A stretch of 64,000 nt of DNA from Cupriavidus taiwanensis (GTDB lineage Bacteria; Pseudomonadota; Gammaproteobacteria; Burkholderiales; Burkholderiaceae): assembly GCF_900250115.1 (NCBI RefSeq), contig NZ_LT984804.1:2185301-2249300 (forward strand). Reading direction: 5' to 3'. The notes under the pieces are model-generated. The model searched no databases. It worked only from the letters and a program-made list of their open reading frames with translations, and was not told where the DNA came from. A program made the translations under genes and the position numbers. This document shows positions 20,936 to 42,701 of this stretch, in pieces (within the stretch, counting starts at the first letter, position 1; each line of letters starts with the position of its first letter).

Positions 20936-20948
20936 GGATCGGCCGGAA

Positions 20949-23192: not shown

Positions 23193-23219
23193 CCGACACG
23201 TGCTTGCCCAAATGCGACA
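23193..23219 (-). promoter_or_regulatory. candidate AraC/GlxA operator upstream of choV
   Basis: On the minus strand TGTCGC and TGTCGG start exactly 21 bp apart, with GGGCAAGCAC between them. The same layout occurs upstream of fdhA and the porin. It lies in the 478-bp choV-purU divergent region, in which I see nothing else. Two-turn direct repeats are typical of AraC-family dimers. Confidence 0.55.
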
Positions 23220-23473
23220 CCGGCATTCATGGCGACCGATTGTCCGGGCCGGCTTGTCCTCAAGCGACGCCGAATGGATCGATTGCGACCCGCTCGCGCG
23301 CCGTCGCTGCCGCCACCGGCATTGGACCGCGCCTTCGGCGTTGGCGCGCCGATACCAGCCACGCGGCGCTTCGGTTCTATCCAGCCTGCCACCCATCCTG
23401 CTTTACTTCGCGCATGGCACGCGCGAGCGCACCACGCGGACCGCCGGCCACACCACTCCAACAAAGGAATCCA

Positions 23474-24346
23474 ATGGACACCCTGCCCCGCCCCCAACCA
23501 TTCGTGCTTACGCTGTCGTGCCCGAGCGCGCCCGGCCAGGTGGCCGCGGTCGTGGGCCTGCTAGAGCGCCACCGCTGCTACATCGACGAACTGACCGTCT
23601 TCGATGACGACCTGAGCAACCGCTTCTTCCTGCGCTGTGTATTCCATCCGACTCCCGCACAAGCGCTTGGCATCGACGTGTTGCGGCATGAGTTCATGCC
23701 GATAGCGGACGGCTTCGGCATGCAATGGGCGATCCACGACGCGCTCGCACGCCCGAAGGTACTGATCATGGTGTCGAAGCTCGAGCATTGCCTCGCGGAT
23801 CTGCTGTTCCGCTGGCGCATGGGCGAGCTGAAGATGGACATCGTCGGGATCGCGTCTAACCATCCCGACCTGGAGCCGCTCGCCCGGCAGCATGATCTCC
23901 CGTTCCGGCACTTCCCGATCACGCCTGAGACGAAGGCGAAACAGGAAGCGCAGTGGCTCGACCTGTTCGAGTCGAGCGGCGCGGAACTTGTCATCCTTGC
24001 ACGCTACATGCAAGTGCTGTCGCCCGAGACCAGTGGGAAACTCGCCAATCGCGCGATCAACATCCACCACTCCTTCCTGCCCGGCTTCAAGGGTGCGAAG
24101 CCGTATCACCAGGCGCATGCGCGCGGCGTAAAGCTGATCGGCGCGACGGCGCATTTCGTCACCGACGATCTCGACGAAGGCCCGATCATCGAGCAGGCCG
24201 TCGAGCGCGTCGATCATTCGTACCGGCCGGAGCAACTGCTCGCGGTCGGGCGCGACGTCGAATGCATCACGCTCGCGCGCGCCGTCAAGGCGTTCATCGA
24301 GCGACGGGTGTTCCTGAACGGAGACCGGACCGTCGTGTTTGCGTAG
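23474..24346 (+). CDS. purU: formyltetrahydrofolate deformylase
   Basis: A 290-residue PurU. It has an N-terminal ACT domain (FVLTLSCPSAPGQVAAVVG) and a C-terminal formyltransferase fold with IASNHPDLEPLA, NIHHSFLPGFKGAKPYHQA, the HxS and Asp residues of the hydrolase active site, and GATAHFVTDDLDEGPIIEQ. The frame is open far upstream (to 22235), but AAAGGA before the ATG at 23474 and the family N-terminus fix the start. It converts 10-formyl-THF to formate and THF, recycling folate charged during sarcosine oxidation. It lies between choV and choX, splitting the transporter genes. Confidence 0.93.
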   Translation: MDTLPRPQPFVLTLSCPSAPGQVAAVVGLLERHRCYIDELTVFDDDLSNRFFLRCVFHPTPAQALGIDVLRHEFMPIADGFGMQWAIHDALARPKVLIMVSKLEHCLADLLFRWRMGELKMDIVGIASNHPDLEPLARQHDLPFRHFPITPETKAKQEAQWLDLFESSGAELVILARYMQVLSPETSGKLANRAINIHHSFLPGFKGAKPYHQAHARGVKLIGATAHFVTDDLDEGPIIEQAVERVDHSYRPEQLLAVGRDVECITLARAVKAFIERRVFLNGDRTVVFA

Positions 24347-24359
24347 GTCCAACGCACAA

Positions 24360-24388
24360 CGGCCACGATCGCATCGCGACCGTGGCCG
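24360..24388. terminator. hairpin between convergent purU and choX
   Basis: A 13-bp stem with one mismatch, CGGCCACGATCGC (24360-24372) and GCGACCGTGGCCG (24376-24388), with a 3-nt loop, lies between the convergent stop codons. Probably a bidirectional terminator. Confidence 0.65.
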
Positions 24389-24418
24389 GCTCATGGTTCC
24401 CTGCGGTCGTTTGAGGAA

Positions 24419-25282
24419 TTAGCGCTCGCTCTCGAGCCACGCATTCACGCGCTCGGCATTCGCGGAGATCCATGCATCGGCGGCCGCGTCGGGCTTCGTG
24501 CCGCCCTGGATCGCCAGCATCACGCTATCGATCTCGCCTGGCTTCCACTGGAATTTCTTCAGGAATGCCACGACCGGCTTCGCCTTCGCCTCGAGACCCG
24601 GGTTCACGATGTTGTCGACGTGCTCGGATTCACCGAACACTTTCTTCGGATCGTCGAGGAAGCGCAGCTTCCACTTGGCGAACATCCAGTGCGGCGCCCA
24701 ACCCGTCACGATCACGGGCTTGTTCGCGTTCATCGCGCGCGCCAGCTCGGCAGTCATCGCACTGCCCGAACTCGGCATCAGCGAATAGCTGAGTCCATAG
24801 CTCTTGATGGCGTCGGAGGCCTTGCGCATCACGCCCGCGCCCGCATCGATGCCGACGATGCGGCCTTCGAATGCCGTCTTCTGGGCGTTCAGATCATCGA
24901 TGCTCTTCGCGCTCACGGATGCCGGAACGATCAGGCCGATTCTTGCCTCGGTAAAGTTCGGACCAAGATTGACCACCTTGGTCTTGAACTGGTCCCAGTA
25001 CGCGCCCTGCGTAACCGGCAGCCAGGCGGACAGCGTCGCATCGAGATCGCCCCGCGCGACGCCCTGCCACATGACGCCCGCTGCAAGCGGCACGAGCTGG
25101 ACCGGGTACCCCAGCTTCTTCTCGATGATGCGTGCGGCGACGTTGGTCGTCGCGACGCTGTCATCCCAACCCTCGACGTAGCCTATCTTCAGGGTCGGTC
25201 TGGTATCCCCCAGCGCGAACGCGCTCCATGTCAACATCACCGACGCCGCGCCGGTAAACAACAGCTTGGAAAGAAGCTTCAT
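24419..25282 (-). CDS. choX: choline/glycine betaine ABC transporter substrate-binding protein
   Basis: A 287-residue OpuAC/ProX-type receptor with a signal peptide ending near SAFALGDT. Ligand-region aromatics are visible in VEGWDDS, AAGVMWQGVA, LSAWLPVTQGAYW and VTGWAPHWMFAKW, a tryptophan-rich pattern like the cage that holds the trimethylammonium group. It lies 108 bp after gbcB on the same strand, so it may be read from the catabolic operon rather than with choVW. Confidence 0.92.
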   Translation of the reverse strand: MKLLSKLLFTGAASVMLTWSAFALGDTRPTLKIGYVEGWDDSVATTNVAARIIEKKLGYPVQLVPLAAGVMWQGVARGDLDATLSAWLPVTQGAYWDQFKTKVVNLGPNFTEARIGLIVPASVSAKSIDDLNAQKTAFEGRIVGIDAGAGVMRKASDAIKSYGLSYSLMPSSGSAMTAELARAMNANKPVIVTGWAPHWMFAKWKLRFLDDPKKVFGESEHVDNIVNPGLEAKAKPVVAFLKKFQWKPGEIDSVMLAIQGGTKPDAAADAWISANAERVNAWLESER

Positions 25283-25390
25283 GGCATACCTCCATTGGCC
25301 GGAGCGGAACCGCCCCGTGTACTTAGAATCGTCGAGAATGCGGCGCGACGGTCCTCGTTGGCCATCAGCCGCGTGGCAGGCGCTACTGCC

Positions 25391-26545
25391 CTACTTGTCG
25401 ATGACGAGATCCGACAGCGGCTTGCTGCAGCACAACAACACCATCCCCTGGTCAATCTCGCGCTGGCGGATGCCGCCGTTGTGTTTCATTTCGACCTGGC
25501 CGGACACGAGCTTGACCTTGCAGGTCCCGCACATCCCCTGCGTGCAGGACGCTGGCAGCCGTACGCCCGACTGCCGCGCGGCATCAAGCACATGCTGGCC
25601 CGACCCGCAGGCGATCTCGCGCCGGCTCTTCGCGAAGCTGACGCTGAACTGCGCCATGTCCGCATTACCGTTGGTTGCCGGCGCGGTGTCCGCAACAGTC
25701 GCGTGGGCCGCTCCCTCGGCCGTCAACGTCTCGAACGAGAAACTTTCCTCGTGGTAGCGCCTGCGATCAAAGCCGGCTTCTTCGAGGAGGTCGCGCACCG
25801 CCTTCATGTACGGCGCCGGCCCGCACGTGAAGATCTCGCGCTCCATGAAATCCGGCGCGATCAGCTTCAGGAGCGGGAGCGACAGGAACCCCGTCACGCC
25901 TGGCCAGCTGGTACGCGCCCCAACCCGCTCGCAGACAAAGGCGGTGCGGAAGTTCGCGTGGTTCGATGCGATCAGGTCGAGCTCGCGGGCGAAGATGATG
26001 TCGTCCGGCGTCCGCGCGCTGTGCACGAACATGATGTCGCGATCCTCGCCGAGATCGTGGTGTGCCCGGCTCATCGACATCAGCGGCGTGATGCCCGAGC
26101 CCGCGGACAGGAACAGGTACTTGCGCGCCGGATGCCGCGCGCAGGTGAACTCGCCGGCCGGGCCCAGCACCCGGATCGGCGTGCCCGGCCGCAGGTTGTC
26201 GTGCAGCCAGTTCGACACCTTGCCGCCCGGCACCCGCTTGACCGTGATCGAGAGCGTATGCGGCCGCGCGGGCGACGACGAAACCGTGTAGCACCTGTTG
26301 ATCGTGTCGCCCTCGATCTCGAGCTCGAGCGTGATGAACTGCCCCGGCTCGAACACGAACGCGCGGCCCTCCGGCGAATGGAAGAAGAAGCTCTTCACGT
26401 CGTGCGTTTCCTGCCGCACGTGGCAGCACACAAGCGTCTCCTCGACGTCGCTCGTCCAGCGCTGCGGGAGCGCATTCCAGAACGCCGGGCGCGTCACCCG
26501 GCTGTCGGCTGGCTCGAATTGGACTGCATCGCGCATCATCTCCAT
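25391..26545 (-). CDS. gbcB: glycine betaine demethylase, ferredoxin-NAD(P)H reductase subunit
   Basis: A 384-residue hybrid reductase. The FAD domain carries NRCYTVSSSP (the RxYS/T flavin motif), the NAD domain has LSAGSGITPLMSM and FTCGPAPYM, and a C-terminal plant-type 2Fe-2S domain has SCTQGMCGTCKVK with the fourth cysteine in LLCC. It passes electrons from NAD(P)H to the Rieske oxygenase GbcA, which removes one methyl of betaine as formaldehyde. The gap to gbcA is 21 bp. Confidence 0.93.
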   Translation of the reverse strand: MEMMRDAVQFEPADSRVTRPAFWNALPQRWTSDVEETLVCCHVRQETHDVKSFFFHSPEGRAFVFEPGQFITLELEIEGDTINRCYTVSSSPARPHTLSITVKRVPGGKVSNWLHDNLRPGTPIRVLGPAGEFTCARHPARKYLFLSAGSGITPLMSMSRAHHDLGEDRDIMFVHSARTPDDIIFARELDLIASNHANFRTAFVCERVGARTSWPGVTGFLSLPLLKLIAPDFMEREIFTCGPAPYMKAVRDLLEEAGFDRRRYHEESFSFETLTAEGAAHATVADTAPATNGNADMAQFSVSFAKSRREIACGSGQHVLDAARQSGVRLPASCTQGMCGTCKVKLVSGQVEMKHNGGIRQREIDQGMVLLCCSKPLSDLVIDK

Positions 26546-26566
26546 CTCCGCTTCCTTTGCCTTCGC

Positions 26567-27808
26567 CTATGCGCCGACGTGCTCGGCAAGCCGGCGGATA
26601 TACCAGGCCGAGAACTTCTCGACGAGGCCTTCGGTGAACGGCGAGTAGGGGCCGGGCTCGTACGCGCTGCTTGCCGCGCCGCGCTGCGAGTACTCGACCA
26701 GCACGCGGTCCTGGTCATTGGTCGCGTTCCACACCGCCGTGAGGTTCTCCACGTCGTAGTCGACGCCTTCCTGCGCATCCTTGTGGACGAGCCATTTCGT
26801 GCGCACGAGCGTTTCGCCGGCCGACAGCGGAATCACCGAGAACGTGACGATGTGGTCGCTCATGAAGTGATGCCATGAGTTCGGCTGCGTCCAGAACGAG
26901 AGCCCGCCCAGGTCGGCCTGCTCGAATTTGCCGAGCAGCTTCTTCGAGGCGACCTTCGCGTCGAGCGTCTGCGACTCGCCGCTGCGGTCGAGCGGCAGGC
27001 GCTGCGTACGGTAGCCGGTTGTCTCGAGCAGGCGCTCGATCTCGGCTGACGGCAGGTTCAGCGCCTCCCACTGCGCCGCGCGCGCAATGCAAGTCTTCTC
27101 GAACGCTTCCATGCCCTCGGCGTTGGCCGGCGACTGCTGATAGCCGAACCCGTACTCGTACAGCGAAATGGTCAGCTCGGGATGGTTCGCCACGCAGTGA
27201 TAACACTCGCGGTTGTTCTCCATCGTGAGCTTCCAGTTGCCCTTCTCGATGATGTCGATCTGCGCGGCAATCTTCGTGTTGGGCAGGTCGTGCGGCAGCA
27301 AATAGGGCTCCATCGCGGCGCGCATCGCCGCGAAGTCGGCGGGAGGCTCGTCCGCCAGGCAGACGAAGATCAGGCCCGCGAGGTTCTGCACGTGCACGGA
27401 TTTCAGGCTGTGCTTGCACCGGTCGAACTTCTCGCCCATGTGCTCGGCGAACATGAGGTCGCCGTTCAGGTTGTAGGTCCAACTGTGGTACGGGCAGACG
27501 ATGTTGCCGACCGTGCCCTTGTCCTCGTTGCACAGGCGCGCGCCGCGGTGGCGGCACACGTTATGGAAAGCGCGCACCTGCATGTCGTCGTCGCGCACGA
27601 CCAGGATCGAGTCGTGGCCGAGCTCGATGGTTATGTAGTCGCCCGGCTCGGGCACGTCTGGCTCGACCGCCACCTGGATCCAGTGCTTGCGGAAGATCGC
27701 TTCCATATCGAGCGCGAAAATCTCCTCGCTCTGATAGAAGGGTGCCTCGAGGCTGTAGCCTTGCTTGCGCCGTTCGACCAGCGCACCAATGTCTGCCGAT
27801 ACTTTCAT
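26567..27808 (-). CDS. gbcA: glycine betaine demethylase, Rieske oxygenase subunit
   Basis: A 413-residue Rieske non-heme iron oxygenase. The Rieske centre is CRHRGARL plus CPYHSW (about 90-113), and the mononuclear-iron region follows in NNRECYHCVANHPEL. It oxidises glycine betaine to dimethylglycine and formaldehyde with O2. GGAG eight bases before the ATG at 27808 fixes the start; the frame extends to 27934 inside etfB. In Pseudomonas gbcA is divergent from gbcB; here the two are collinear and follow dgc/etf. Confidence 0.93.
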   Translation of the reverse strand: MKVSADIGALVERRKQGYSLEAPFYQSEEIFALDMEAIFRKHWIQVAVEPDVPEPGDYITIELGHDSILVVRDDDMQVRAFHNVCRHRGARLCNEDKGTVGNIVCPYHSWTYNLNGDLMFAEHMGEKFDRCKHSLKSVHVQNLAGLIFVCLADEPPADFAAMRAAMEPYLLPHDLPNTKIAAQIDIIEKGNWKLTMENNRECYHCVANHPELTISLYEYGFGYQQSPANAEGMEAFEKTCIARAAQWEALNLPSAEIERLLETTGYRTQRLPLDRSGESQTLDAKVASKKLLGKFEQADLGGLSFWTQPNSWHHFMSDHIVTFSVIPLSAGETLVRTKWLVHKDAQEGVDYDVENLTAVWNATNDQDRVLVEYSQRGAASSAYEPGPYSPFTEGLVEKFSAWYIRRLAEHVGA

Positions 27809-27863
27809 CGTCTGGCTCCGGATTCCCTGCATTCCTGGTTTGTTTGCCGATGGATCGGCAACA

Positions 27864-28649
27864 TCAGTAGTCAATGAGTTGATGCTCGCGTAAGTACGCA
27901 AGGATGACTTGTGCTTTTTCGACCGAAGTCCCACCGTTTACGACGTTTCCGCCGCGGCTCTCGGTCGTCGTCGCCGACAGCATCCGGGCATGCCCGGAGC
28001 GCTGCTCGGCAGCGGCCAGCCTGACTGGCTTGCGCTCGGGGGCGCCGAGCGTCCATGCGGCGGCGCCGGCATCTTCGAACCGCGCCGCGGGCGCCGTCCG
28101 GATCGCGCCCGCACGCAGCCGTGCGTACGCATAGCGCGGCTGCGCATTGGCGAGCGAATGGACGGCCACCACGGTCGGCAGCACCGCCTCGACGCGCCGG
28201 CGCAGGCCCTTCGGCAGGAACTGCCGGACGGTGACGCGCCCGTCCGCGATGTCCACATCGACGGCCGCCCCGACCAGCGGGCGGCCGAGCGCCGCCGCAA
28301 CGTGGTACGGCAGCATCCCGGTGTCGTATGCGCCTTCCGCCCGGGTGCCGGTCAGAACGAGGTCGTAGTCCTTCACACGCGCGGCCAATGTGCGCCCGGC
28401 ATCATCCCCGGCCCCACAGGCAAGCACTTCGACTTCGCGTGCCCCGAGCGCCAGGTACCCGGCGAGTGCCGGCTCCGCGGCGTCGCCAGCGTGCAGCACC
28501 GCGAGCTGCGCGCGATGCTTGTCCGCCAGCGCGAGGCCGATCGCGAGCGCCGCGGCGTCGTTGCGGCTGTAGCGCGTTGCCCCGCTGACCGGATGACGGC
28601 CAACCGAAACGAGCACCGCGATCCGCCGGATTTGTTGGTGGGCGTTCAT
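27864..28649 (-). CDS. etfB: electron transfer flavoprotein beta subunit (dimethylglycine pathway)
   Basis: A 261-residue EtfB/FixA-like protein with the N-terminal domain IAVLVSVGRHPVSG and a recognition-loop region LTGTRAEGAYDTGMLPYHVA. It overlaps etfA by 4 bp (ATGA). It is more divergent than housekeeping EtfB and belongs to the dgc-associated type, presumably dedicated to DgcA/DgcB electrons. A glycine-rich tail (ESRGGNVVNGGTS) precedes a terminal helix of the AEPQA type. Confidence 0.85.
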   Translation of the reverse strand: MNAHQQIRRIAVLVSVGRHPVSGATRYSRNDAAALAIGLALADKHRAQLAVLHAGDAAEPALAGYLALGAREVEVLACGAGDDAGRTLAARVKDYDLVLTGTRAEGAYDTGMLPYHVAAALGRPLVGAAVDVDIADGRVTVRQFLPKGLRRRVEAVLPTVVAVHSLANAQPRYAYARLRAGAIRTAPAARFEDAGAAAWTLGAPERKPVRLAAAEQRSGHARMLSATTTESRGGNVVNGGTSVEKAQVILAYLREHQLIDY

Positions 28650-29815
28650 GCTGCGGCTCCCAGCGGTTCGCGGACGCTGGCCGCTGCCGGCGCCCTTCCG
28701 TTCGTGCGGCGTGCGGCCTGCACCGCTTCAATCAGCGCCGCGATCGTCTCCTTCGCGTCCCCGACGATGGTCAGGTTCGCGCGCTTGGCAATGGGCGCGC
28801 TGCCGTCCAGATTGACGGCGATCACGTGACGGCAGTCCTTGATGCCCTGCAGATGCTGCACCGCGCCGGAGATGCCAAATGCGATATAGACACTCGCCTC
28901 GACCGTCTTGCCGGTCGCGCCGACCTGCTTGTCGCGCGTGAAATGGCCGTTGTCGACGGCGACGCGGCTCGCGGCGATTGCTGCGCCGAACACGCCGGCA
29001 AGCTGTTCGAACGCACCGATATCGGCGACGCCATTGCCGGCGGACACGATGAAGTCCGCCTCCTCGAGCGCGACCTGGGCGGCATCGATCTCATCGAGGC
29101 CCAGGTCGCGGTACGGCTGGGCGCCGTCGCCGATCCCCAGCAGGAAGTCGCCGGACAGCGACTGGCCCGCGCCGGTGAACGGCAGCTTCGTGTCGACCGC
29201 ACCGGGTGCGAGCAGGATCACGTCGGGCAGCGAGCGCGTCGCAAAGGCGCGTTTCGCCTGTGCGTAGGTGCCGACGTGGCGCGCGTCGAGCTCGACCACG
29301 TGCGTCGCGACGCTCGCACCGGTTGCGGCCGCGTAGCGGCGGCCGAGATCGCCATCGCCGGTCGCGTTATCGGGCAGGAAAACCTGCTTCGGCGACAGCG
29401 CGGCCGCGCAGGCCAGCAGCGCCTGCAGCTCGGCATCGGGCGCAAAGGCGCGGCGATCGAACCCGGGCAGCGCGATGACCTTGTCGGCGCCGAGAGCCGC
29501 CGCGTCGTCCTTCAGCTCGCCGAACACCAGCAGCGCGACCTCGGTCTGCGCATCGGCAAGCAGCGCCGCCGCGGCGAGCGCCTGGCACGCATGGTCGTCC
29601 AGCGCGCCGCGCTCGCTGTGCGCGGCGACGAGCAGCACGTGCTGCGCATCGCTGACCGCGCGGCGCGGCCTTGTCGCCGTCCCGCCGTGGCCGTGCGCGG
29701 ACCAGTGGGGGGCGTTTGGATCCGCGCTGCCGGTTTCGCCGAGCGTGATCCTTCTCAGGCCCGCCGCCGTGATCACGAACGGACGACGCGGATCGATACG
29801 TGGGATCTTGTTCAT
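28646..29815 (-). CDS. etfA: electron transfer flavoprotein alpha subunit (dimethylglycine pathway)
   Basis: A 389-residue EtfA with an extended N-terminus. The FAD domain is conserved: VGATGKTVEASVYIAFGISG, AVQHLQGIKDCRHVIAVNLD and AKRANLTIVGDAKE. The ATG at 29815 lies 4 bp after the dgcB stop; the frame continues to 29950 inside dgcB. With EtfB it probably moves electrons from the flavin demethylase DgcA to the membrane iron-sulfur protein DgcB. Confidence 0.87.
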   Translation of the reverse strand: MNKIPRIDPRRPFVITAAGLRRITLGETGSADPNAPHWSAHGHGGTATRPRRAVSDAQHVLLVAAHSERGALDDHACQALAAAALLADAQTEVALLVFGELKDDAAALGADKVIALPGFDRRAFAPDAELQALLACAAALSPKQVFLPDNATGDGDLGRRYAAATGASVATHVVELDARHVGTYAQAKRAFATRSLPDVILLAPGAVDTKLPFTGAGQSLSGDFLLGIGDGAQPYRDLGLDEIDAAQVALEEADFIVSAGNGVADIGAFEQLAGVFGAAIAASRVAVDNGHFTRDKQVGATGKTVEASVYIAFGISGAVQHLQGIKDCRHVIAVNLDGSAPIAKRANLTIVGDAKETIAALIEAVQAARRTNGRAPAAASVREPLGAAA

Positions 29816-29819
29816 CAGG

Positions 29820-31745
29820 TCACTCCAGCGAGGCCGCAACGAGTTCGGCCACATCCAGCACGTCCGGCCGCGGGCCGACGACACCTTCGAGCATTGCCGT
29901 GCAGTTCGGGCACCCGACCGCGACCACTTCCGCGCCCACGGCACGCGCATCGGCGATGCGAATATCCGGGATGCGCTGCTTGCCCGGGATATCGGTCAGC
30001 GGCGCGCCGCCCCCGCCGCCGCAACAGCGGCCGCGCATGCCATGGCGCTCCATCTCGACCACCTTGATGCCGATCGTCTTCAGCAGCTTGCGCGGCGCCT
30101 CGGTCTCGCCGTTGTAGCGGCCGAGATAGCACGGATCGTGATAGGTGGTGACCTTCTCGCGCAGCGCCTCCACCGCCTGCGGCGCGATACGCCCGCTGTC
30201 GGCCAGTTCGGCGAGATAGCTGGTGTGATGCTTGACCGTGACGCGCAAGCCCAGGGCGCGATACTCGTTGCGCAGGCTGTGCATGACGTGCGGGTCCGCC
30301 GTCACGATCTGCCCGAAGGACAACGTGCCGAGCGTGCCGATCAGGCGCTTCGCCATCTGCTGGAACGTCGCCTCGTCGCCGAGACGGCGGGCCACGTCGC
30401 CGGTGTCCGTTTCCACGCCGCCGAGCACCGCATAATCGACGCCAGCCTTGTTCAGTACCTTCACGAAGGCCCGCAGCGTGCGCTGATAGCGCATGTCGAA
30501 TGCCCCCTCGCCGGCAACGATCAGCACGTCTACGGCCTTGCCCCGCTGCGCGACCGGCGCATTGAGGTCGACCGACCAGTCATAGCGCGCCGCGGTGTCG
30601 TAGCCGCCCATCGTGCCGGTCTCGCGCAGGTTCGCGAGCACTTCGGCCCCTTTGCCGGGCACGATGCCATGCACGAGCGTCTGGTTGCGGCGCATGTCGA
30701 CGATCGCATCGACATGCTCGATCAGCATCGGGCATTCCTGCACGCAGGCCCGGCAGGTGGTGCACGACCACAGTGTGTGCGCTTCGATCAGTCCCGACAC
30801 GATCGGGCCATTCGGCTCGCCGCAATGGCGGCCGACAGGAAGGCCCGGCGTCGGGCTGCCAGCGTACGCGGCATCGCTGCCGCCCGCCATGCCGACCACG
30901 AGATCCTGGATCAGTTTCTTCGGATTGAGCGGCTGGCCCGAGGCGAACGCGGGACACGCGGCCTCGCACTTGCCGCACTGCACGCAGGCGTCAAAGCTCA
31001 GCAGCTGGTTCCAGCGGAACTGGACGGGCCTGGCGACGCCGTATTCCTGCTTTTCGATCTCGGGCAGCTTGAGCGCGGTCGGCGGCGTGGCCGTGCCGTC
31101 GCCGGTGTACGAGTCAGACTTGCCGGCAAACCGTTCCTGACGCGGATGGAACGCGAGATGCATGAGGCCAGCGATCGCGTGCTTCATCGGCCCGCCTTTC
31201 GCCGCGCCGAACGTCATCGCGAACGCGCCGGCGCCGATCAGCAGCGCGCAGGCTACCGCGAACGCACCCGACATGACGTCAGCCGGCACGGCCACGAACA
31301 ACACGAGACCGAGCGCAAACGAACCAAGCAGCCACGGCAGCGTGTTCCATGGCCCCTTCGACAGGCGCGCGGGTACGTCCTTGGCGCGCCGGCGGCGCCA
31401 GACGAACACCGCGCCAATTAGCATCGCGAGCGCCGCGGCGAAAATCGCCTTGTCGAGCCAAGGCGAGTAGATCGCCAGACCGTAATTGACGAACACGAGC
31501 GCCAGCGCGCCAATCGCACCGCCGGCCGTGGCAACGTGCGTCCTGGCAATGTACGGATCGCGGGCGACCACGTGGTGCAGGTCGACGAAATAGCGCTTCG
31601 GGATGGCCAACAGGTTCGCAATGCCGAACGATCCGGGCGCGGTCGCCCGGCCGAGCCGCCAGTACGACGCGCGCTTCACGACCGCGAATGCGAGCCCCGC
31701 CACCGACAGCCACAGCAGAACGGTAATCAGGAGGGACGGGTTCAT
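29820..31745 (-). CDS. dgcB: dimethylglycine catabolism membrane iron-sulfur protein
   Basis: A 641-residue protein. About five or six transmembrane helices (residues 1-200) are followed by a two-cluster 4Fe-4S ferredoxin domain, CVQCGKCEAACP (near 260) and CTTCRACVQECP (near 340), and by cysteine-rich CCG domains ending GRCCGGGGGAP. The layout resembles GlpC/HdrD-type quinone-linked reductases, so it most likely delivers electrons to the quinone pool. The gap from the dgcA stop is 2 bp. Confidence 0.9.
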   Translation of the reverse strand: MNPSLLITVLLWLSVAGLAFAVVKRASYWRLGRATAPGSFGIANLLAIPKRYFVDLHHVVARDPYIARTHVATAGGAIGALALVFVNYGLAIYSPWLDKAIFAAALAMLIGAVFVWRRRRAKDVPARLSKGPWNTLPWLLGSFALGLVLFVAVPADVMSGAFAVACALLIGAGAFAMTFGAAKGGPMKHAIAGLMHLAFHPRQERFAGKSDSYTGDGTATPPTALKLPEIEKQEYGVARPVQFRWNQLLSFDACVQCGKCEAACPAFASGQPLNPKKLIQDLVVGMAGGSDAAYAGSPTPGLPVGRHCGEPNGPIVSGLIEAHTLWSCTTCRACVQECPMLIEHVDAIVDMRRNQTLVHGIVPGKGAEVLANLRETGTMGGYDTAARYDWSVDLNAPVAQRGKAVDVLIVAGEGAFDMRYQRTLRAFVKVLNKAGVDYAVLGGVETDTGDVARRLGDEATFQQMAKRLIGTLGTLSFGQIVTADPHVMHSLRNEYRALGLRVTVKHHTSYLAELADSGRIAPQAVEALREKVTTYHDPCYLGRYNGETEAPRKLLKTIGIKVVEMERHGMRGRCCGGGGGAPLTDIPGKQRIPDIRIADARAVGAEVVAVGCPNCTAMLEGVVGPRPDVLDVAELVAASLE

Positions 31746-31747
31746 CG

Positions 31748-34406: not shown

Positions 34407-34536
34407 CGTGGTAACTCCGTGAGGAAAGGAAAGCCGCTGGATCGTTGCGCAGAGGCGGCGTCGCCCGCGAGCGCGCGCGTATCGCGCGCGCCCGTCCCGT
34501 TGGTGGTGATTTGATTGAAAGTTGGCGGTGCGGGGA

Positions 34537-35508: not shown

Positions 35509-35537
35509 GGGGGGCTCCAGTCCTTTATTCGTTCGGG

Positions 35538-36812
35538 TCAGTAGATCGGGAAGCGATCGCACAGCGCGAAGATCTGGTGGCGCACGCGCTGCTCGGTGGC
35601 GGCGTCGCCCTCCGGATTTGCGCGCAGCGCTTCGAACACCTCGAGGATCAGGCGGCCGATCTCGCGGAACTCCGCAACGCCGAAGCCGCGCGTGGTGGCC
35701 GCGGGCGCGCCGAGCCGGATCCCGGACGTGATGGTCGGCTTCTCGGTGTCGAACGGGATGCCGTTCTTGTTGCAGGTGATGCCGGCACGTTCGAGTGCCT
35801 GCTCGACCTGGGTGCCCTTGAGTCCCTTCGGGCGCAGATCGACCAGCAGCAGGTGGTTGTCGGTGCCGCCGGTGACGAGGTCGACACCACCTTCCTTCAA
35901 CACTTCGCCAAGCGCCTTCGCGTTCGCGAGCACGTTGTCGATGTAGGTTTTGAAGTCCGACGTCAGCGCCTCGCCGAACGCCACCGCCTTGGCTGCGATC
36001 ACGTGCATCAACGGGCCGCCCTGCAGACCGGGGAACACGGCGGAGTTGATCTTCTTTGCGATGTCTTCATCGTTGGTCAGCACGAAGCCGCCGCGCGGAC
36101 CGCGCAGGGTCTTGTGCGTGGTCGAGGTGACGACGTGGGCATGCTCGACCGGGTTCGAATGCCGGCCCGCGGCGATCACACCGGCGATGTGGGCCATGTC
36201 GACCATCAGCTTCGCGCCGACGCTGTCGGCGATCGCGCGGAAGCGGGCGAAGTCGAGCTGGCGCGGATACGCAGAGAAGCCGGCGATGATCAGGCTCGGC
36301 TTGTGCGCCTTCGCGAGCGCTTCGACCTGGTCGTAGTCGATCAGCATCGATTCACGGTTCACGCCATACTGCACGGCGTTGAACCACTTGCCCGACAGCG
36401 CCGGCCTGGCGCCATGGGTCAGGTGACCGCCGGCGTCGAGCGACATGCCGAGCACGGTATCGCCGGGCTTCGTCAGCGCGAGCATCACCGAGCCGTTCGC
36501 CTGGGCGCCGGAGTGCGGCTGCACGTTGGCAAAGCCGGCGTTGAAGAGCTGCTTCACGCGCTCGATCGCGAGCGATTCGACTTCGTCCGCGAATTCGCAG
36601 CCGCCGTAGTAGCGCTTGCCCGGGTAACCTTCGGCGTACTTGTTGGTCAGTACCGAACCTTGGGCTTCGAGCACCGCACGCGACACGATGTTTTCCGAGG
36701 CGATCAGCTCGACTTGCGACTGCTGACGCTCGAGTTCCTTCGAAAGGGCGCCGCGAACCAGCGCATCGCGCTCGGCCAGGGGCTGCGAGAAGAAAGACTG
36801 GGTGTTCGACAT
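35538..36812 (-). CDS. glyA: serine hydroxymethyltransferase
   Basis: A 424-residue SHMT with [46 protein letters not shown] and the PLP lysine in [16 protein letters not shown]. It joins glycine from sarcosine with 5,10-methylene-THF to make serine, using both products of SoxBDAG. The frame is open to 37094, but the conserved N-terminus sets the start at 36812. It heads the long glyA-dipeptidase-DUF5943-dgcAB-etfAB-gbcAB-choX unit and is divergent from the GbdR-like gene. Confidence 0.95.
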
Positions 36813-37205
36813 AAAGGTCCGTGTGGGATGAAATGGCTGACTGGGGGCGAGAGGCCCGCTGCGCCAGGCTTGTTCGCCTGATCGGCGCGGCGTTGCCAAC
36901 GGCTCTATTCTTGTCGTTGGTGTTTTTGGCCGATTGATGAATTCAGACGCGTTCTTTTCCATTTCCGCCATTCGCGTCCGATTTGCGCAAGTGGCGCAGG
37001 AGGGCACCGCGATGGTGCCGGGGACGCAGTGTGGTTGCGGGGCGTCACGATTGCGGTGCAACAAGGACCACGTTGCTGGGTTCCAGCGGAACACCCTACT
37101 AAAGAGCTAGGGTTTCGCCGTATGGCATGCTTGTTGCGGCTGACTTAACAATAAGTAAAAAGCATCCAGGCCTTCGCCCTTCCCCGCTTCCCGCGAGGAC
37201 TGGAA
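36813..37205. promoter_or_regulatory. divergent promoter region between glyA and the GbdR-like gene
   Basis: 393 bp with no gene. An AT-rich stretch near 37130-37160 (TTGTTGCGG...AACAATAAGTAAA) is the likely promoter of the plus-strand regulator. I looked for the 21-bp TGTCGG repeat seen at choV, fdhA and the porin and found no convincing copy. No glycine riboswitch core was visible. Confidence 0.4.
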
Positions 37206-38252
37206 ATGCACCTTAAAAATCTGAAGGACGCCCCCATGTCGACCGACCGCACCGCGTCGTTATCCCACTTCGCGTTCATGCCGCTGCCCAACTTCACCAT
37301 GATCGCGTTCACCAATGCGATCGAAGTGCTGCGCATGGCGAATTACCTGAGCGGCCAGGAGCTGTACCGCTGGAGCATCATCAGCCCGGAAGGCGGGCTG
37401 GTGACGGCGAGCAATGGCCTGGCGCTCGACACCGAGCGGGCAGACAGTATCGCGCGTCCTGACATCGTGTTCGTTTGCGGCGGCATCGACGTGCAGCGTT
37501 CGACGACCGCGGAGCACCTGTCCACGCTGCGCCGCGCGGCGCGCGAGGGCACCATGCTGGGGAGCCTCTGCACCGGCACGTACGCACTGGCGAGATCCGG
37601 CCTGCTGGCCGGCTATGCCTGCGCGATCCACTGGGAAAACATGTCAGCGCTCAAGGAGGAGTTTCCCGATACGCGCTTCCTGAAGGAACTGTTCGTGATC
37701 GACCGCGACCGGGTCACGTGCACGGGGGGCGTCGCGCCGCTGGACATGATGCTGAACCTGATCGCCCGGCGCGTCGGTACCGCGCGCGTCACGCAGATCG
37801 CCGAGCAATTCATTGTCGAGCACGTGCGCGACACGAGCGCGCAGCAGAAAATCCCGTTGGTCGCGCGACTGGGTTCGGCGAAGAAGTCCCTGTTCGAGGT
37901 AGTCTCGCTGATGGAGAACAACATCGAGGAGCCACTGTCGCGCGAAGAGCTGGCACGGCTGGCCAACCTGTCGCAGCGGCAGTTGCAGCGCCTGTTCCGC
38001 GACCATCTCGGCATGACGCCGACGCACTACTACCTGACGCTGCGCCTGCGCCGTGCCCGCGAGCTGCTGCTGCAGACGGATATGTCGATCATGCACATCA
38101 CGATGGCATGTGGGTTCCAGTCCGCGTGCCATTTCAGCAAGAGCTACCGCGACGAGTTCGGTGTCGCGCCTACGCGCGAACGCAGGGCGCAGAGCGCGCC
38201 GCTGGCGAAGTCGTCTGGGCATGCGTCCCCTTCAGTAATGCTTCATGCGTGA
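37206..38252 (+). CDS. gbdR: GlxA-family regulator, probable glycine betaine regulator
   Basis: A 348-residue regulator with a DJ-1/PfpI-like sensor (SHFAFMPLPNFTMIAFTNAI, GSLCTGTYALARSG, CTGGVAPLDMMLNLI) and an AraC DNA-binding domain (LSREELARLANLSQRQLQRL, then ITMACGFQSACHFSKSYRDEFG). It is divergent from the glyA-dgc-gbc operon. Pseudomonas GbdR has this architecture and activates gbc, dgc and sox genes in response to betaine or dimethylglycine; the assignment here is by analogy. The frame's ATG at 37206 may be early; an ATG at residue 11 is also possible. Confidence 0.8.
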   Translation: MHLKNLKDAPMSTDRTASLSHFAFMPLPNFTMIAFTNAIEVLRMANYLSGQELYRWSIISPEGGLVTASNGLALDTERADSIARPDIVFVCGGIDVQRSTTAEHLSTLRRAAREGTMLGSLCTGTYALARSGLLAGYACAIHWENMSALKEEFPDTRFLKELFVIDRDRVTCTGGVAPLDMMLNLIARRVGTARVTQIAEQFIVEHVRDTSAQQKIPLVARLGSAKKSLFEVVSLMENNIEEPLSREELARLANLSQRQLQRLFRDHLGMTPTHYYLTLRLRRARELLLQTDMSIMHITMACGFQSACHFSKSYRDEFGVAPTRERRAQSAPLAKSSGHASPSVMLHA

Positions 38253-38296
38253 GCGCCTGATGGCGCGGCAGTGCACCACATTGCCCCAAGGGCAAA

Positions 38297-38323
38297 ACGG
38301 GCGGCCGGAAAGCGGCCGCCCGT
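38297..38323 (-). terminator. rho-independent terminator of fdhA
   Basis: A perfect 11-bp stem, ACGGGCGGCCG/CGGCCGCCCGT, with a 5-nt loop. Read on the minus strand it is followed by TTTTGCCC. It lies between convergent gbdR and fdhA and may act both ways. Confidence 0.8.
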
Positions 38324-38342
38324 CTGGCTTCTGCGCCGGTGA

Positions 38343-39539
38343 TCAGGCCGCCAGCAGCCCGTGCGGATCAATGACGAATTTGCGTGGCGCGCCGCCATCG
38401 AACTGCTTGTAACCTTCCGGCGCCTGTTCAAGCGGGATGACCGTCACATTGACGATCTCCGCAATCGGCAAGCGATTGTGCAGGATCGCCTGCATCAGGT
38501 TGCGGTTGTACTTCAGGACCGGCGTCTGCCCCGTATGGAACGAGTGCGACTTCGCCCAGCCGAGCCCGAAGCGGATGCTCAGGCTGCCGCGCTGGGCCGC
38601 GGCGTCCTTGGCGCCCGGATCATCGGTCACGTACAGGCCCGGAATCCCGATCGCACCGGCGGGCCGCGTGATTTCCATCAGCGAGTTGAGCACCGTGGCA
38701 GGCGCTTCCTCCACATAGCCCGACGAGCCGTGGCCATGCGCCTCGAAGCCGACGCAGTCCACCGCGCAGTCGATCTCGGGCGTGCCGAGAATCCCGGCGA
38801 TCTGCTCGCCGAGCGTGGCGTCCTTCGACAGATCGACGACTTCAAAGCCCATCGCCTTCGCGTGCGCGAGACGCGCCGGGTTCATGTCGCCGACAATCGT
38901 GCAGGCCGCGCCGAGCAGGCGCGCCGAAGCGGCGGCGGCCATGCCGACCGGACCCGCGCCGGCGATATAGACGGTCGAGCCGGGCTTCACGCCCGCGGTC
39001 ACGGCACCGTGATAGCCCGTCGGCAGAATGTCCGACAGGCAGGTGAGATCGCGGATCTTCGCCATCGCCTGGTCGCGGTTGGGGAATCTCAGCAGGTTGA
39101 AGTCGGCATACGGCACCATCACGTACTCGGACTGCCCGCCGATCCAGCCGCCCATGTCGACATACCCATACGCACCACCCGCACGCGACGGGTTGACGCT
39201 AAGGCAGACGCCGGTATGTTGCTCCTTGCACATCGCGCAGCGGCCGCAAGCGACGTTGAACGGCACCGACACCAGATCGCCAAGCTTCAGCGTCTCGACG
39301 TCGCGGCCGATTTCGATGACCTCGCCGGTGATCTCGTGACCGAGCACGAGGCCGGTCGGTGCGGTCGTGCGGCCGCGCACCATGTGCTGGTCCGACCCGC
39401 AGATGTTCGTGCTCACGACCTTGAGGATCACGCCGTGGCCAATGGCCCGGCCGCTGGGATCGACCATTTTCGGATAGTCGATCTTCTGAACCTCGACCTG
39501 GCCTGGTCCAAGATATACGACACCTCGGTTGCTGCTCAT
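38343..39539 (-). CDS. fdhA: glutathione-independent formaldehyde dehydrogenase
   Basis: A 398-residue zinc-dependent medium-chain dehydrogenase of the Pseudomonas putida Fdh type. It has the catalytic zinc region NICGSDQHMVRG and GHEITGEVIE, the structural-zinc cysteines CGRCAMCKEQHTGVC, and NAD binding in YIAGAGPVGMAAAASARLLG. The length equals the P. putida enzyme. It oxidises formaldehyde released by GbcA and sarcosine oxidation without a thiol cofactor. GGAG eight bases before 39539 fixes the start. Its leader shares sequence with the porin leader. Confidence 0.95.
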   Translation of the reverse strand: MSSNRGVVYLGPGQVEVQKIDYPKMVDPSGRAIGHGVILKVVSTNICGSDQHMVRGRTTAPTGLVLGHEITGEVIEIGRDVETLKLGDLVSVPFNVACGRCAMCKEQHTGVCLSVNPSRAGGAYGYVDMGGWIGGQSEYVMVPYADFNLLRFPNRDQAMAKIRDLTCLSDILPTGYHGAVTAGVKPGSTVYIAGAGPVGMAAAASARLLGAACTIVGDMNPARLAHAKAMGFEVVDLSKDATLGEQIAGILGTPEIDCAVDCVGFEAHGHGSSGYVEEAPATVLNSLMEITRPAGAIGIPGLYVTDDPGAKDAAAQRGSLSIRFGLGWAKSHSFHTGQTPVLKYNRNLMQAILHNRLPIAEIVNVTVIPLEQAPEGYKQFDGGAPRKFVIDPHGLLAA

Positions 39540-39568
39540 CGCATTGTCTCCATGTCTGGTTGAATCGT

Positions 39569-39610
39569 GCCGCGGCCACGCCGATCGGCGCGGCATGCGC
39601 GGCAGCGTCT
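39569..39610 (-). promoter_or_regulatory. fdhA leader hairpin element shared with the porin
   Basis: The segment matches 42594-42634 over about 35 bp. In the transcript, a late arm (GGCGUGGC) can pair with the adjacent GCCGCGCC, or an earlier GCUGCCGCGC can pair with the GC-rich 3' arm, so two structures compete. It lies 30-70 nt before the fdhA start codon. Confidence 0.5.
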
Positions 39611-39640
39611 TCGAGCGTATGCCGGGATACCGGTGCGGAA

Positions 39641-39677
39641 TGTCCAAAACCCGACAGGCGCTTGCACGGTGCCGACA
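39641..39677 (-). promoter_or_regulatory. candidate AraC/GlxA operator upstream of fdhA
   Basis: On the minus strand two TGTCGG half-sites start 21 bp apart with GTGCAAGCGC between, followed by TTTTGGACA, which resembles a -35 element. The nearer half-site is about 112 bp from the fdhA start. The arrangement is nearly identical at the porin. The remaining intergenic sequence up to 39886 holds the MFS gene promoter, not otherwise recognisable. Confidence 0.65.
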
Positions 39678-39886
39678 TCGGGGAGCGCCGGCGCCGCCTC
39701 GGCATCGCGAACGCAGCGCATGTCCACCGGCGGATCTGAGCGGACCGCCCCACGCTGGCCCGCCGATGGCGGATTTGCACAGACCGGCGGCGGTTATGCT
39801 CCAGAGCATGTGGCGATAACCGCGTCTACTGAAGTTGGGGCCTGCAAGCAACCTGCTAAGAGGCCCCGATTTCTTTCAAGGACGCC

Positions 39887-41317
39887 ATGCCAACGCCCAC
39901 CACCTCACCCACGCGCTCGAACGCCGCCGCCCGGCTCGAACGCCTGCCCTTTTCCGGCTACCACAAGCTGATTTTCATCGTCGTCGCGATCGCATTTTTC
40001 TTCGACTCGGTCGATCTCGCCACCATGACCTTCATACTGGGCTCGATCAAGCAGGAGTTCGGGCTGTCCACCGCAATGACCGGCGTCGTCGCCAGCGCAA
40101 GCTTCTTCGGGATGGTGGTGGGCGCGGCGCTCGCCGGCCTGCTCGCGGACCGATTCGGACGCCGGCCCGTGTTCCAGTGGAGCATGGTGCTGTGGGGCGT
40201 GGCGTCGTACCTGTGCTCGACCGCGCAAAGCGTCGACGCGCTGATCGTCTGGCGCGTACTGCTCGGGGTCGGCATGGGCATGGAGTTTCCGGTCGCGCAG
40301 ACGCTGTTGTCCGAATTCGTCCCCACCGCGAACCGCGGCCGCCTGATCGCACTGATGGACGGCTTCTGGCCGCTCGGCTTTATCACCGCCGGGATTGTCT
40401 CTTACTTCGTGCTGCCGCAGTTCGGCTGGCGCGCCGTGTTCGCGCTGCTCGCGATCCCGGCCGTATTCGTGCTGATCGTGCGCCGCATCGTGCCGGAGTC
40501 GCCGCGCTGGCTCGAGCATGCGGGCCGGCACGCCGAGGCCGACGCGGTGATGTGTGGCATCGAGGCCAGGGTGATGCGTTCAGCCGGTGTCGCGATGCTG
40601 CCGCGACCGTCGCTGCAGCCAATGGCCGAGCCAGTGCGCGGGCGCGGCGCGCTGCGCGAGATCTGGAGCGGCGCCTACCGCCGCCGCACCACGATGGTCT
40701 GGCTGCTGTGGTTCTTCGCGCTGCTCGGCTTCTACGGACTGACCTCCTGGCTTGGCGCGCTACTGCAGCAGGCCGGCTTTGCGGTCACGCAATCGGTGTA
40801 CTACACGGTACTGATCTCGCTCGGCGGCGTGCCGGGCTTCCTGTGCGCGGCGTGGCTCGTCGAGCGCTGGGGGCGCAAGCCCACCTGCATCGCGTCGCTG
40901 CTCGGCGGCGGCATGATGGCGTACCTGTATGGCCAGAGTGCGCTCTACGGCGGCAGTGTCGCGCTGCTCGTTGGCACCGGCCTGGCGATGCAGTTCTTCC
41001 TGTTCGGCATGTGGGCGGTGCTGTACACCTACACGCCGGAACAGTATGGCACCGGCTCGCGTGCGACGGGGTCGGGTTTCGCCTCGGCAGTCGGGCGAAT
41101 CGGCTCGCTGATCGGGCCCTATGTGGTTGGCGTGGTGCTGCCGGTCTTCGGACAGGGTGGCGTGTTCACGCTCGGCGCGCTGTCGTTCGCCGTGGCGGCA
41201 CTGGCGGTGTGGGTGCTGGGTATCGAGACCCGCGGCGTCGCCCTGGAAGCGCTGGCGTCCGAGGAGGCAACAGGCGAAACCCAGCTTTATCCCGCTGTGG
41301 CGGACAGGTCTTCCTGA
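39887..41317 (+). CDS. MFS transporter (sugar/aromatic acid-type)
   Basis: A 476-residue major facilitator with 12 predicted helices. It has DSVDLATMTFILGSI in helix 1, the loop 2-3 motif GLLADRFGRRPVFQ, RVLLGVGMGMEFPVAQTLLSEFVPTANRGR and the second-half repeat WLVERWGRKP. The family usually moves aromatic acids, dicarboxylates or betaine-like compounds by proton symport. AAGGA precedes the ATG. It is divergent from fdhA, so it may carry a betaine-pathway substrate, but the ligand is not evident. Confidence 0.88.
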   Translation: MPTPTTSPTRSNAAARLERLPFSGYHKLIFIVVAIAFFFDSVDLATMTFILGSIKQEFGLSTAMTGVVASASFFGMVVGAALAGLLADRFGRRPVFQWSMVLWGVASYLCSTAQSVDALIVWRVLLGVGMGMEFPVAQTLLSEFVPTANRGRLIALMDGFWPLGFITAGIVSYFVLPQFGWRAVFALLAIPAVFVLIVRRIVPESPRWLEHAGRHAEADAVMCGIEARVMRSAGVAMLPRPSLQPMAEPVRGRGALREIWSGAYRRRTTMVWLLWFFALLGFYGLTSWLGALLQQAGFAVTQSVYYTVLISLGGVPGFLCAAWLVERWGRKPTCIASLLGGGMMAYLYGQSALYGGSVALLVGTGLAMQFFLFGMWAVLYTYTPEQYGTGSRATGSGFASAVGRIGSLIGPYVVGVVLPVFGQGGVFTLGALSFAVAALAVWVLGIETRGVALEALASEEATGETQLYPAVADRSS

Positions 41318-41360
41318 CGCGCCGGCGCGGATAAAAACGGGATGGCCTGTCCGGGCCGTC

Positions 41361-41390
41361 CGCCACGAGTCGCTGCCGCGACTCGTGGCG
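41361..41390. terminator. hairpin between convergent MFS and porin genes
   Basis: A perfect 13-bp stem, CGCCACGAGTCGC and GCGACTCGTGGCG, with the 4-nt loop TGCC. A strong bidirectional hairpin, without a clear U run. Confidence 0.75.
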
Positions 41391-41409
41391 CCCTCAGGAC
41401 AAGATCCGT

Positions 41410-42561
41410 TCAGAACTTGTGGCGAATCGCGGCGCGAACCTGGAACTGGCTCGACGTCGATGAAGCGTTCGCCGCCCCCGGCAAGTCAGCCATGTCCAAT
41501 GCGGTGCCGGTCTTGCCGCCGGCGACACGCTGGTAGGCACCCTGGATATAGACGTCCGTGCGCTTCGAGAAGCTGTAGTCCGCCATCAGGCCGAAGGAAT
41601 GGACTTTCGGCTTGGCGTCGCCCGACGACGCGTTGAAGTTTTCCAGGGTGAGCGTATAAGCCCCTCCCGCATAGAAGGCGGGGGTGAACTGATACTTGAA
41701 GTTCACTTCCAGGTTCTGGAACCGGAGCGAGTTCAAGGTACCGCTGGCCGGCAGGATGGAGCCGGAGATGTACGACGTGGACAGCGGTTCGGTCAGGTTC
41801 GAGTTGGTGTAAGCGAAGCCGGCCGTTGCCGCGCCAAACGTGTAGTTGATGCCGGCACCGAAGATGCGCAAACGCCTGGCAAGGAAGTTCTGGTCGCCGC
41901 CGTTATTGATGGCACCTTCCGCTGTGGCCGACGGGTTGTCCGCCTGGAGATAGGCCGCAGCCAGCAACAAGCCGCCGTTCGCGTACTGCATCCCCGCGCC
42001 GAACTGGCGGTTGTTGGCAAAGTTGGTGTCGTTGCTGAAGCTGTAGGTGCCGCCGAACTGGAACCCGCCCAGCGAGGGACTGGTGTACTTGACCGTGTTG
42101 TTGACGCGGAACGAGTAGATCAGGTTGTCGTTATCGTAGGGGTGGCCGAACATGGTCCCCCCCCAACTGCCGGCAACGGTCGTCGGCGCGAGATAGTCGA
42201 TCACCGAATCATACTGGCGCCCGAGCGTGACGCTCCCCCATTGATGGTCGGAAAGCCCGACGTAGGCTTGCCGACCGAACATCAGCCCGCCCTGTGCCGC
42301 TCTGCCGTTGCTCGCATTGAAGCCGTTCTCGAGCTGGAACAACGCCTTGAGGCCGCCGCCCAGGTCCTCCGTCCCCTTCAGGCCCCAGCGGCTGCCTTGC
42401 GCAAAGCCGCTTGCCAGCTCGGTCAGGCGGTTTCCTCCGACGTTGTTCGTGTAGTTGATGCCTTCGTCGACCACGCCGTACAGCGTGACGCCGCTTTGGC
42501 CAAAGGCGGACGCGGAAAACATCAGCGCCAGGACAGGCCCGGCAGTCGCTCCCTTTTTCAT
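41410..42561 (-). CDS. general (OmpC/Burkholderia-type) outer membrane porin
   Basis: A 383-residue gram-negative porin. A signal peptide ends at SAFGQSGV, followed by VTLYGVVDEGINYTNN, GSRWGLKGTEDLGGGLKALF, FGRQAYVGLS and the terminal strand FQVRAAIRHKF ending in phenylalanine. The 16-strand trimeric type forms a diffusion pore. GAGGAGAG precedes the ATG at 42561. Its promoter and leader copy those of fdhA, so it is probably induced with betaine catabolism and admits betaine or a precursor. Confidence 0.93.
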   Translation of the reverse strand: MKKGATAGPVLALMFSASAFGQSGVTLYGVVDEGINYTNNVGGNRLTELASGFAQGSRWGLKGTEDLGGGLKALFQLENGFNASNGRAAQGGLMFGRQAYVGLSDHQWGSVTLGRQYDSVIDYLAPTTVAGSWGGTMFGHPYDNDNLIYSFRVNNTVKYTSPSLGGFQFGGTYSFSNDTNFANNRQFGAGMQYANGGLLLAAAYLQADNPSATAEGAINNGGDQNFLARRLRIFGAGINYTFGAATAGFAYTNSNLTEPLSTSYISGSILPASGTLNSLRFQNLEVNFKYQFTPAFYAGGAYTLTLENFNASSGDAKPKVHSFGLMADYSFSKRTDVYIQGAYQRVAGGKTGTALDMADLPGAANASSTSSQFQVRAAIRHKF

Positions 42562-42593
42562 TGGATTCTCTCCTCGTATGATCGTGACTCGCG

Positions 42594-42634
42594 CCGCTGC
42601 CGCGCCGATCGGCGCGGCATGCGCGGCAGCGTCT
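42594..42634 (-). promoter_or_regulatory. porin leader hairpin element shared with fdhA
   Basis: Contains the 20-bp perfect palindrome GCCGCGCCGATCGGCGCGGC and, just upstream in the transcript, GCUGCCGCGC, which can pair with the same GCGCGGCAGC arm. The two hairpins exclude each other. About 35-70 nt before the start codon. Confidence 0.5.
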
Positions 42635-42664
42635 ACGAGATTAGTGCGGGAGACCGGGCAGCCT

Positions 42665-42701
42665 ATGTCCAATACCGACACGCGTTTGGACCATGCCGAC
42701 A
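42665..42701 (-). promoter_or_regulatory. candidate AraC/GlxA operator upstream of the porin
   Basis: Minus-strand TGTCGG half-sites start exactly 21 bp apart (complements at 42675 and 42696) with GTCCAAACGC between, followed by TATTGGACAT. The nearer half-site is 114 bp from the start, against 112 bp at fdhA. Confidence 0.65.

Follow-up and report, generated by a model that had tools for sequence, protein, structure and literature searches.

Do the promoters of choV, fdhA and a porin gene in Cupriavidus taiwanensis share an operator, and which regulator would bind it? The question is raised by a stretch of 64,000 nucleotides (hereafter the window) on contig 2, NZ_LT984804.1, of a three-contig genome of 7.01 Mb. 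The window carries a glycine betaine island with four GlxA-type regulator genes. In the original prediction, TGTCGG or TGTCGC half-sites 21 bp apart were noticed upstream of the three genes and were proposed to be the operator of one of the GlxA paralogues. In this study, a fourth site was found in front of glyA, and the four sites quite probably serve a betaine-responsive activator of the GbdR clade (AraC family, GlxA-like) as operators.

Four tandem repeats and their promoters

The three TGTCGS-N15-TGTCGS sites, with their 21-bp period, are all present on the minus strand, each oriented toward its own gene, and the CAA-purine-C core noted between the half-sites is correct. The site at glyA had been overlooked; its first half-site is TGGCGG and its second CGTCTG. 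The four sites are:

23193..23219, minus strand, candidate tandem operator of choV-choW-gbdR2, TGTCGC-N15-TGTCGG (TGTCGCATTTGGGCAAGCACGTGTCGG), between choV (minus) and a formyl-transferase gene (plus)
36944..36970, minus strand, candidate tandem operator upstream of glyA, divergent from gbdR1, TGGCGG-N15-CGTCTG
39651..39677, minus strand, candidate tandem operator upstream of fdhA (TGTCGGCACCGTGCAAGCGCCTGTCGG)
42675..42701, minus strand, candidate tandem operator upstream of the porin gene (TGTCGGCATGGTCCAAACGCGTGTCGG)

The earlier limits of the choV site stand; those for fdhA (39641-39677) and the porin (42665-42701) were 10 bp too long, running over a TTGGAC stretch, and the distances from site to start, given before as 112 and 114 bp, are 111 (ATG at 39539) and 113 bp by our count. 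Positions 15-16 of the distal half-site are A-A in all four sites, and the sixth half-site base is exactly C at choV only.

Among same-strand TGTCGS pairs in the window, the spacing of 21 occurs three times, and no other spacing up to 60 occurs more than twice; the three occurrences in 64 kb compare with 0.24 expected from the rest of the genome (P ~0.002). Over the whole genome, the bare pattern shows no enrichment, with 29 occurrences and 28 of the reversed control. The pattern alone thus means little, and it was dropped as evidence. The decisive step over chance was the addition of conserved positions through models built on relatives. A first weight matrix, trained on the relatives' fdhA and porin sites, scored the window sites at 45.1 (fdhA), 37.5 (porin) and 16.7 (choV), with 5.0 for a match inside the porin gene and a weak 0.7 for glyA; the maximum of the backwards control was -4.2. 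The glyA site came to light through a related tandem repeat that relatives repeatedly carry between gbdR and glyA. A second, sequence-only model of 38 positions was trained on 47 sites, all of them from relatives and none from the window, with all three subtypes represented. When the 7.0-Mb genome was scanned with it (with scores for 150 of 4407 first-look candidates), the exact top four were choV (29.0 bits), porin (27.2), fdhA (27.2) and glyA (24.8), followed by a next-best match of 15.5 bits, a ranking that speaks for exclusivity and not for independent discovery, since the training set includes orthologous sites of other Cupriavidus. T1, G2, C4, G5, A15 and A16 are invariant in the 47 sites, which were chosen by patterns demanding most of these letters. 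Three subclasses of sites were seen among relatives, with the fdhA/porin type and the glyA type distinct.

Each site also stands in a fixed register to a -10-like hexamer, with offsets counted from the first base of the proximal half-site:

23156..23161, minus strand, AACTAT of choV, offset 37
36907..36912, minus strand, AAGAAT of glyA, offset 37
39614..39619, minus strand, TACGCT of fdhA, offset 37
42638..42643, minus strand, TAATCT of the porin gene, offset 37

At none of 50 offsets did any of 5000 random quartets from the window's intergenic pool match the mean score of the four sites. The peak in relatives is at offset 37 for the glyA and choV types and at 38 for the fdhA/porin type; TA[CAT]NCT was found at 37 or 38 in 68/68 fdhA/porin-type sites of 80 loci, and at none of the other scanned offsets from 20 upward. 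If these hexamers are taken as the usual -10, the distal half-site covers about -70 to -50 and the proximal one about -49 to -29. The proximal half-site would then overlap the -35 region at a fixed distance from the -10, as expected of an AraC class II activator.

Conservation in relatives

Two samples were used, namely 80 gbdR1 loci of relatives and 60 genomes of the family. At the loci, fdhA was present at >60% identity in 66 cases, of which 64 were counted (one had a short upstream and one failed the start or length filter), and all 64 upstreams contain the repeat: judged on 14 specified positions, 40 match exactly, 22 have one mismatch and 2 have two. A porin relative at >60% identity occurs in ten of the 80 loci (nine named Cupriavidus, one Ralstonia); the nine with a complete upstream all have the repeat, with 0, 1 and 2 mismatches in four, one and four cases. 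As a control, 2.4% of 20,000 random 300-bp stretches of the same loci, true sites included, reach two mismatches or fewer. Exactly one glyA-type site was found in each of the 80 loci, on the opposite strand and 213-335 bp from the extrapolated gbdR1 start; this count used a looser regular expression derived from the same loci, with the placement checked afterwards, and a first, stricter expression had picked up the element, or something resembling it, in no more than 41 of the 81 records.

Among the 60 family genomes, a gbdR1 orthologue (78-100% identity) is present in 18, and the glyA-type site occurs in exactly these 18. It lies beside gbdR1 in 17 of them, and in G051 it is about 1.9 kb from a second gbdR1 copy. 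Two genomes (G026 and G037) gave only 3-mismatch glyA-type matches, with none of the window's genes adjoining. Matches of the fdhA, choV or porin type were found in 16 of the 18 gbdR1 genomes and in none of the other 42. These 27 matches lie upstream of fdhA (14), choV (8) and the porin gene (1) or beside betI (3), and the remaining one (L121) is beside none of the window's genes. The choV-type site at 0-1 mismatch is upstream of choV in eight of the 60 genomes, our own included. Among the 18 gbdR1 genomes, G015 and G030 lack a match of the fdhA, choV or porin type; in G015 fdhA itself has no match at E 1e-100. The contig of G030 equals that of L080 in length, and at L080 an fdhA site appears under a looser pattern. 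A lack of enrichment upstream of betaine genes in relatives would have spoken against the original prediction; the outcome was the opposite, with the sites kept upstream of the same genes.

Two side observations concern the fdhA-type sites. The three that adjoin betI are in L126, L139 and L122 (betI assigned by NCBIfam in the first two and by resemblance in L122); those of L126 and L139 have a -10 pointing away from betI, and that of L122 is without a -10. In G034 (L188/L126), the fdhA-type operator and its -10 are intact, and all that is left of fdhA, some 6.6 kb behind them, is a C-terminal remnant (query residues 249-397), probably as the result of an insertion.

Over their full length, the fdhA promoter and leader can be aligned with those of the porin gene, the leaders with a score of 98 against a maximum of 26 in 200 shuffles; the other leader pairs either fall short of the shuffle maximum or barely exceed it (27 against 24-25). 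As the promoter is duplicated, the porin gene seems to have joined the regulon via a copied fdhA promoter. In both leaders (39540-39610 and 42562-42632, minus strand), a strong GC hairpin lies between the -10 and the start codon, with z of -2.8 for fdhA and -2.6 for the porin (2/200 shuffles as good in each case). Support for the hairpin is uneven, since z ranges from -3.2 to +0.9 in six relatives' fdhA leaders.

Outside the family, an order-wide scan of 150 genomes with the second model and stricter filters gave matches in six: our own genome and G009, which are real, and four outside the family, which are weak (18.6-19.2 bits). Seven outside genomes have a GbdR match at E 1e-75 or better, and six were analysed (G190, 43%, was left out). 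Four of the six (G072, G119, G162 and G116) have a repeat with 1-2 mismatches about 75-160 bp upstream of choV, with extrapolated starts; each has a choV-choW-gbdR cluster and one GbdR-like match among the matches listed, and G116 has a GlxA2-like gene (46%) nearby as well. The two highest scores of the second model in these six genomes, 13.9 and 13.7 bits, are those of one match within choW and one in front of sda. G066 carries a 1-mismatch repeat about 222 bp upstream of sda and no same-strand repeat within 300 bp of choV (L191). L190 has no choV, and a repeat about 356 bp from choV in G174 (L196) was left uncounted.

The betaine island and its candidate regulators

The glycine betaine island spans about 17 to 50 kb of the window, and the best-matching named gbdR locus is that of Cupriavidus necator SHC 2-3 (99%). 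It contains choV, choW, gbcA/gbcB-like and dgcA/dgcB-like genes, etf, glyA, fdhA, the porin gene, folB, sox subunits, sda and the four GlxA-type regulators. The gbc, dgc and etf names follow the best NCBIfam matches, all below cut-off. The genes next to the sites are:

21838..23034, minus strand, choV, ATP-binding protein of a choline/betaine importer (TIGR01186, over cut-off; start chosen in this analysis)
23474-24346, plus strand, formyl-transferase-domain gene, divergent from choV
35538..36812, minus strand, glyA, heading a co-directional run
38343..39539, minus strand, fdhA, glutathione-independent formaldehyde dehydrogenase (TIGR02819, 782.4 bits, over cut-off)
41410..42561, minus strand, porin gene (Porin_4, Pfam)

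Downstream of choV is choW (TIGR03416, over cut-off). Behind glyA, in the same direction, are an M19 peptidase gene, a DUF5943 gene, dgcA, dgcB, etfA, etfB, gbcA and gbcB. An ISL3-family transposase gene (14359-15579, plus strand) adjoins the island, and an Rfam scan of the whole window at gathering scores returned no matches. The four regulators are:

37206..38252, plus strand, gbdR1, DJ-1/PfpI and AraC helix-turn-helix (HTH) regulator, best candidate binder (NF052371, 395.6 bits; Pfam)
19922..20977 (open reading frame limits, start approximate), minus strand, gbdR2, third gene of choV-choW-gbdR2, 54% identical to gbdR1 (NF052371, 365.8 bits; Pfam)
50017..51201, plus strand, glxA2, a more distant paralogue of the GlxA type, transcribed divergently from sda and by its position alone a SouR-like candidate (NF052371, 171 bits; Pfam)
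52561..53733 (open reading frame limits), minus strand, glxA3, fourth GlxA paralogue (DJ-1_PfpI and HTH_18; NF052371, 104.5 bits)

All four paralogues combine DJ-1/PfpI with the AraC HTH (HTH_18), as is characteristic of the GlxA/GATR type. In the sda-glxA2 intergenic region, another conserved element (ATGCCGnTTTTnTTCTAnCG, 49843-49863, minus strand) recurs in 10/17 relatives; it is a candidate promoter or GlxA2 operator.

Tandem half-sites at a 21-bp spacing, the proximal one overlapping the -35, are also known from araI1-I2 of Escherichia coli AraC, although the half-site sequence and the sensor domain differ. Nock and Wargo are said to have described in 2016 the regulation of choline catabolism in Burkholderia thailandensis by gbdR1, gbdR2 and souR, which would resemble our locus in having two gbdR genes and a sarcosine regulator within Burkholderiaceae. 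In Pseudomonas aeruginosa, GbdR and CdhR are GATase-1-like AraC regulators of betaine and carnitine catabolism. According to the CdhR report, CdhR recognizes GGTCGC half-sites with a 15-bp spacer that are "very similar" to the sites of GbdR, SouR and ArgR, and the conserved CG of the distal GbdR half-site is required for binding (PMC5806209). Two direct half-sites with a 15-bp spacer upstream of betaine or carnitine genes are common to those systems, as described there, and to ours, which differs in its half-sites (TGTCGG/C or TGGCGG), in having fdhA and the porin gene among the targets, and in having two GbdR-like paralogues; the likeness to GbdR and SouR sites is drawn from that description. 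The box of Pseudomonas ArgR is given as TGTCGCN6GNAA, in tandem, 5 bp apart and with the second generally less conserved (PMC10963909; the box is also covered in PMC4997734). The choV distal half-site is an exact match to this box as given there, and the arrangement is likewise tandem; ArgR responds to arginine, unlike the system proposed here, and the sixth base is G at fdhA and the porin, with TGGCGG at glyA. GbdR and SouR are described as activators induced by betaine/dimethylglycine and by sarcosine, respectively (PMC12093977).

The sequence features of a GbdR/CdhR/ArgR-type operator, i.e., the 21-bp period, a TGTCGC-like core with A-A and a position upstream of betaine genes, are all found in the window. 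The half-site and spacing are like those of CdhR, for which great similarity to GbdR, SouR and ArgR sites is described, so each of the four paralogues is in principle a possible binder. The idea of an operator for one of the GlxA paralogues is thus supported at the level of sequence: the half-site, 15-bp spacer and A-A positions match CdhR/ArgR, the sites are conserved in relatives, and the distance to the -10 is fixed. The likely binders are GbdR1 and GbdR2, and GlxA2 is less likely. In the putative recognition helices, which we placed on the alignment ourselves, GbdR1 shares 7/9 and 10/14 residues with GbdR2, and 7/9 and 5/14 with GlxA2, so that only the second helix separates the two.

It is extremely improbable that the four promoters have no regulator in common and that the repeat they share arose through promoter duplication or by chance. 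Duplication is plain for the promoters and leaders of fdhA and the porin, and the bare pattern lacks genome-wide enrichment; yet the other leader pairs stay near shuffle level while all four promoters share the site and the -10 register, and the site is conserved across genera. A rather unlikely arrangement is that GlxA2, as a SouR-like sarcosine sensor, serves the fdhA and porin sites and GbdR serves glyA and choV, the types differing in the spacer. The distinctness of the fdhA/porin and glyA subclasses fits such a split, as do the equal match of the first recognition helix, the divergence of glxA2 from sda (which precedes the sox genes) and the repeat upstream of sda in G066. Formaldehyde is also a product of sarcosine oxidase. 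SouR sites are, in the CdhR report noted above, described as resembling those of GbdR (PMC5806209). Yet upstream of glxA2, in the window and in 17 relatives, no site was found at 0-1 mismatch (two relatives have one at 2 mismatches), and the second model gave nothing above 7.5 bits on the relatives' glxA2 upstreams. G004 and G048, moreover, carry GlxA2 orthologues (66-69%) without the sites, fdhA or a gbdR1 orthologue, and the second recognition helix of GlxA2 differs from that of GbdR1 (5/14 residues shared, against 10/14 for GbdR2).

GbdR1 and GbdR2 might also divide the sites (e.g., GbdR1 taking glyA and fdhA, and GbdR2 taking choV), or GbdR1 might drive gbdR2 in a cascade via the choV site. 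This is a finer version of regulation by the GbdR pair and not an alternative to it, and we regard it as possible though doubtful. In its favor are the three site subclasses and the clustering of choV, choW and gbdR2, which holds for every one of the 18 sampled family genomes that have gbdR2; the similar recognition helices suggest shared sites, and the four outside genomes still have the repeat upstream of choV with a single GbdR-like match each among the matches listed.

Regulation of all four promoters by a GbdR-clade activator has several points against it. None of the four paralogues reaches the cut-off of 480 of NF052371, the GbdR equivalog, so GbdR1 and GbdR2 are GbdR-like and not that equivalog. 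The attempt to name the binder by co-occurrence failed, because GbdR1, GbdR2 and GlxA2 are in the same 18 genomes, and the co-occurrence of the glyA-type site with gbdR1 is partly trivial, as the two adjoin. Because of the duplication, fdhA and the porin count as one line of evidence and not two. The two samples overlap, with several contigs of identical length occurring in each. Of the 18 gbdR1 genomes, eight have a strong choV site and four a weak one (10.6-13.2 bits), and in the other six it was not found; the outside choV repeats come from the 2-mismatch pattern alone, as the second model did not report them at E 1 or better. Offset 37 was first spotted by eye on the window sites, and the TA[CAT]NCT expression was written after the relatives' sequences had been viewed.

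Meaning of the sites for betaine catabolism

The mechanism that we favor, with GbdR1 and/or GbdR2 as the protein, is one of activation rather than repression. Glycine betaine or dimethylglycine would be the trigger. One subunit would occupy each 21-bp half-site, the better conserved distal one (TGTCGS-N8-AA) and the proximal one that overlaps the -35 region, and the dimer would bring RNA polymerase to a poor -10 whose start is 37-38 bases away from where the proximal half-site begins, in AraC class II geometry. This would switch on glyA and the demethylation genes behind it, uptake through choV-choW together with gbdR2, formaldehyde disposal by fdhA, and the porin, with operons of the presumed extents.

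The operator is of a known kind; the new part is the complete four-promoter map. This operator in Cupriavidus was not announced in the titles and abstract openings searched, a coverage that mostly excludes subscription journals. Judged from the DNA, the site set appears to be well-supported but fairly ordinary gene regulation. A possible though less likely reading is a compact regulon whose four promoters all lie within 20 kb of the 7-Mb genome. Two GbdR paralogues may share its operators, one of them inside an operon that it controls (feed-forward), and the porin may have been recruited as a betaine-inducible outer-membrane channel by copying of the whole fdhA promoter and leader.

In sum, a pattern spotted by eye has become a defined set of four testable promoters, through which formaldehyde removal, betaine uptake, one-carbon salvage and a porin may be tied to one signal. 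Conserved counterparts are present in Burkholderia, Paraburkholderia and Caballeronia, and the resulting site model detects such sites in genomes of Burkholderiaceae.

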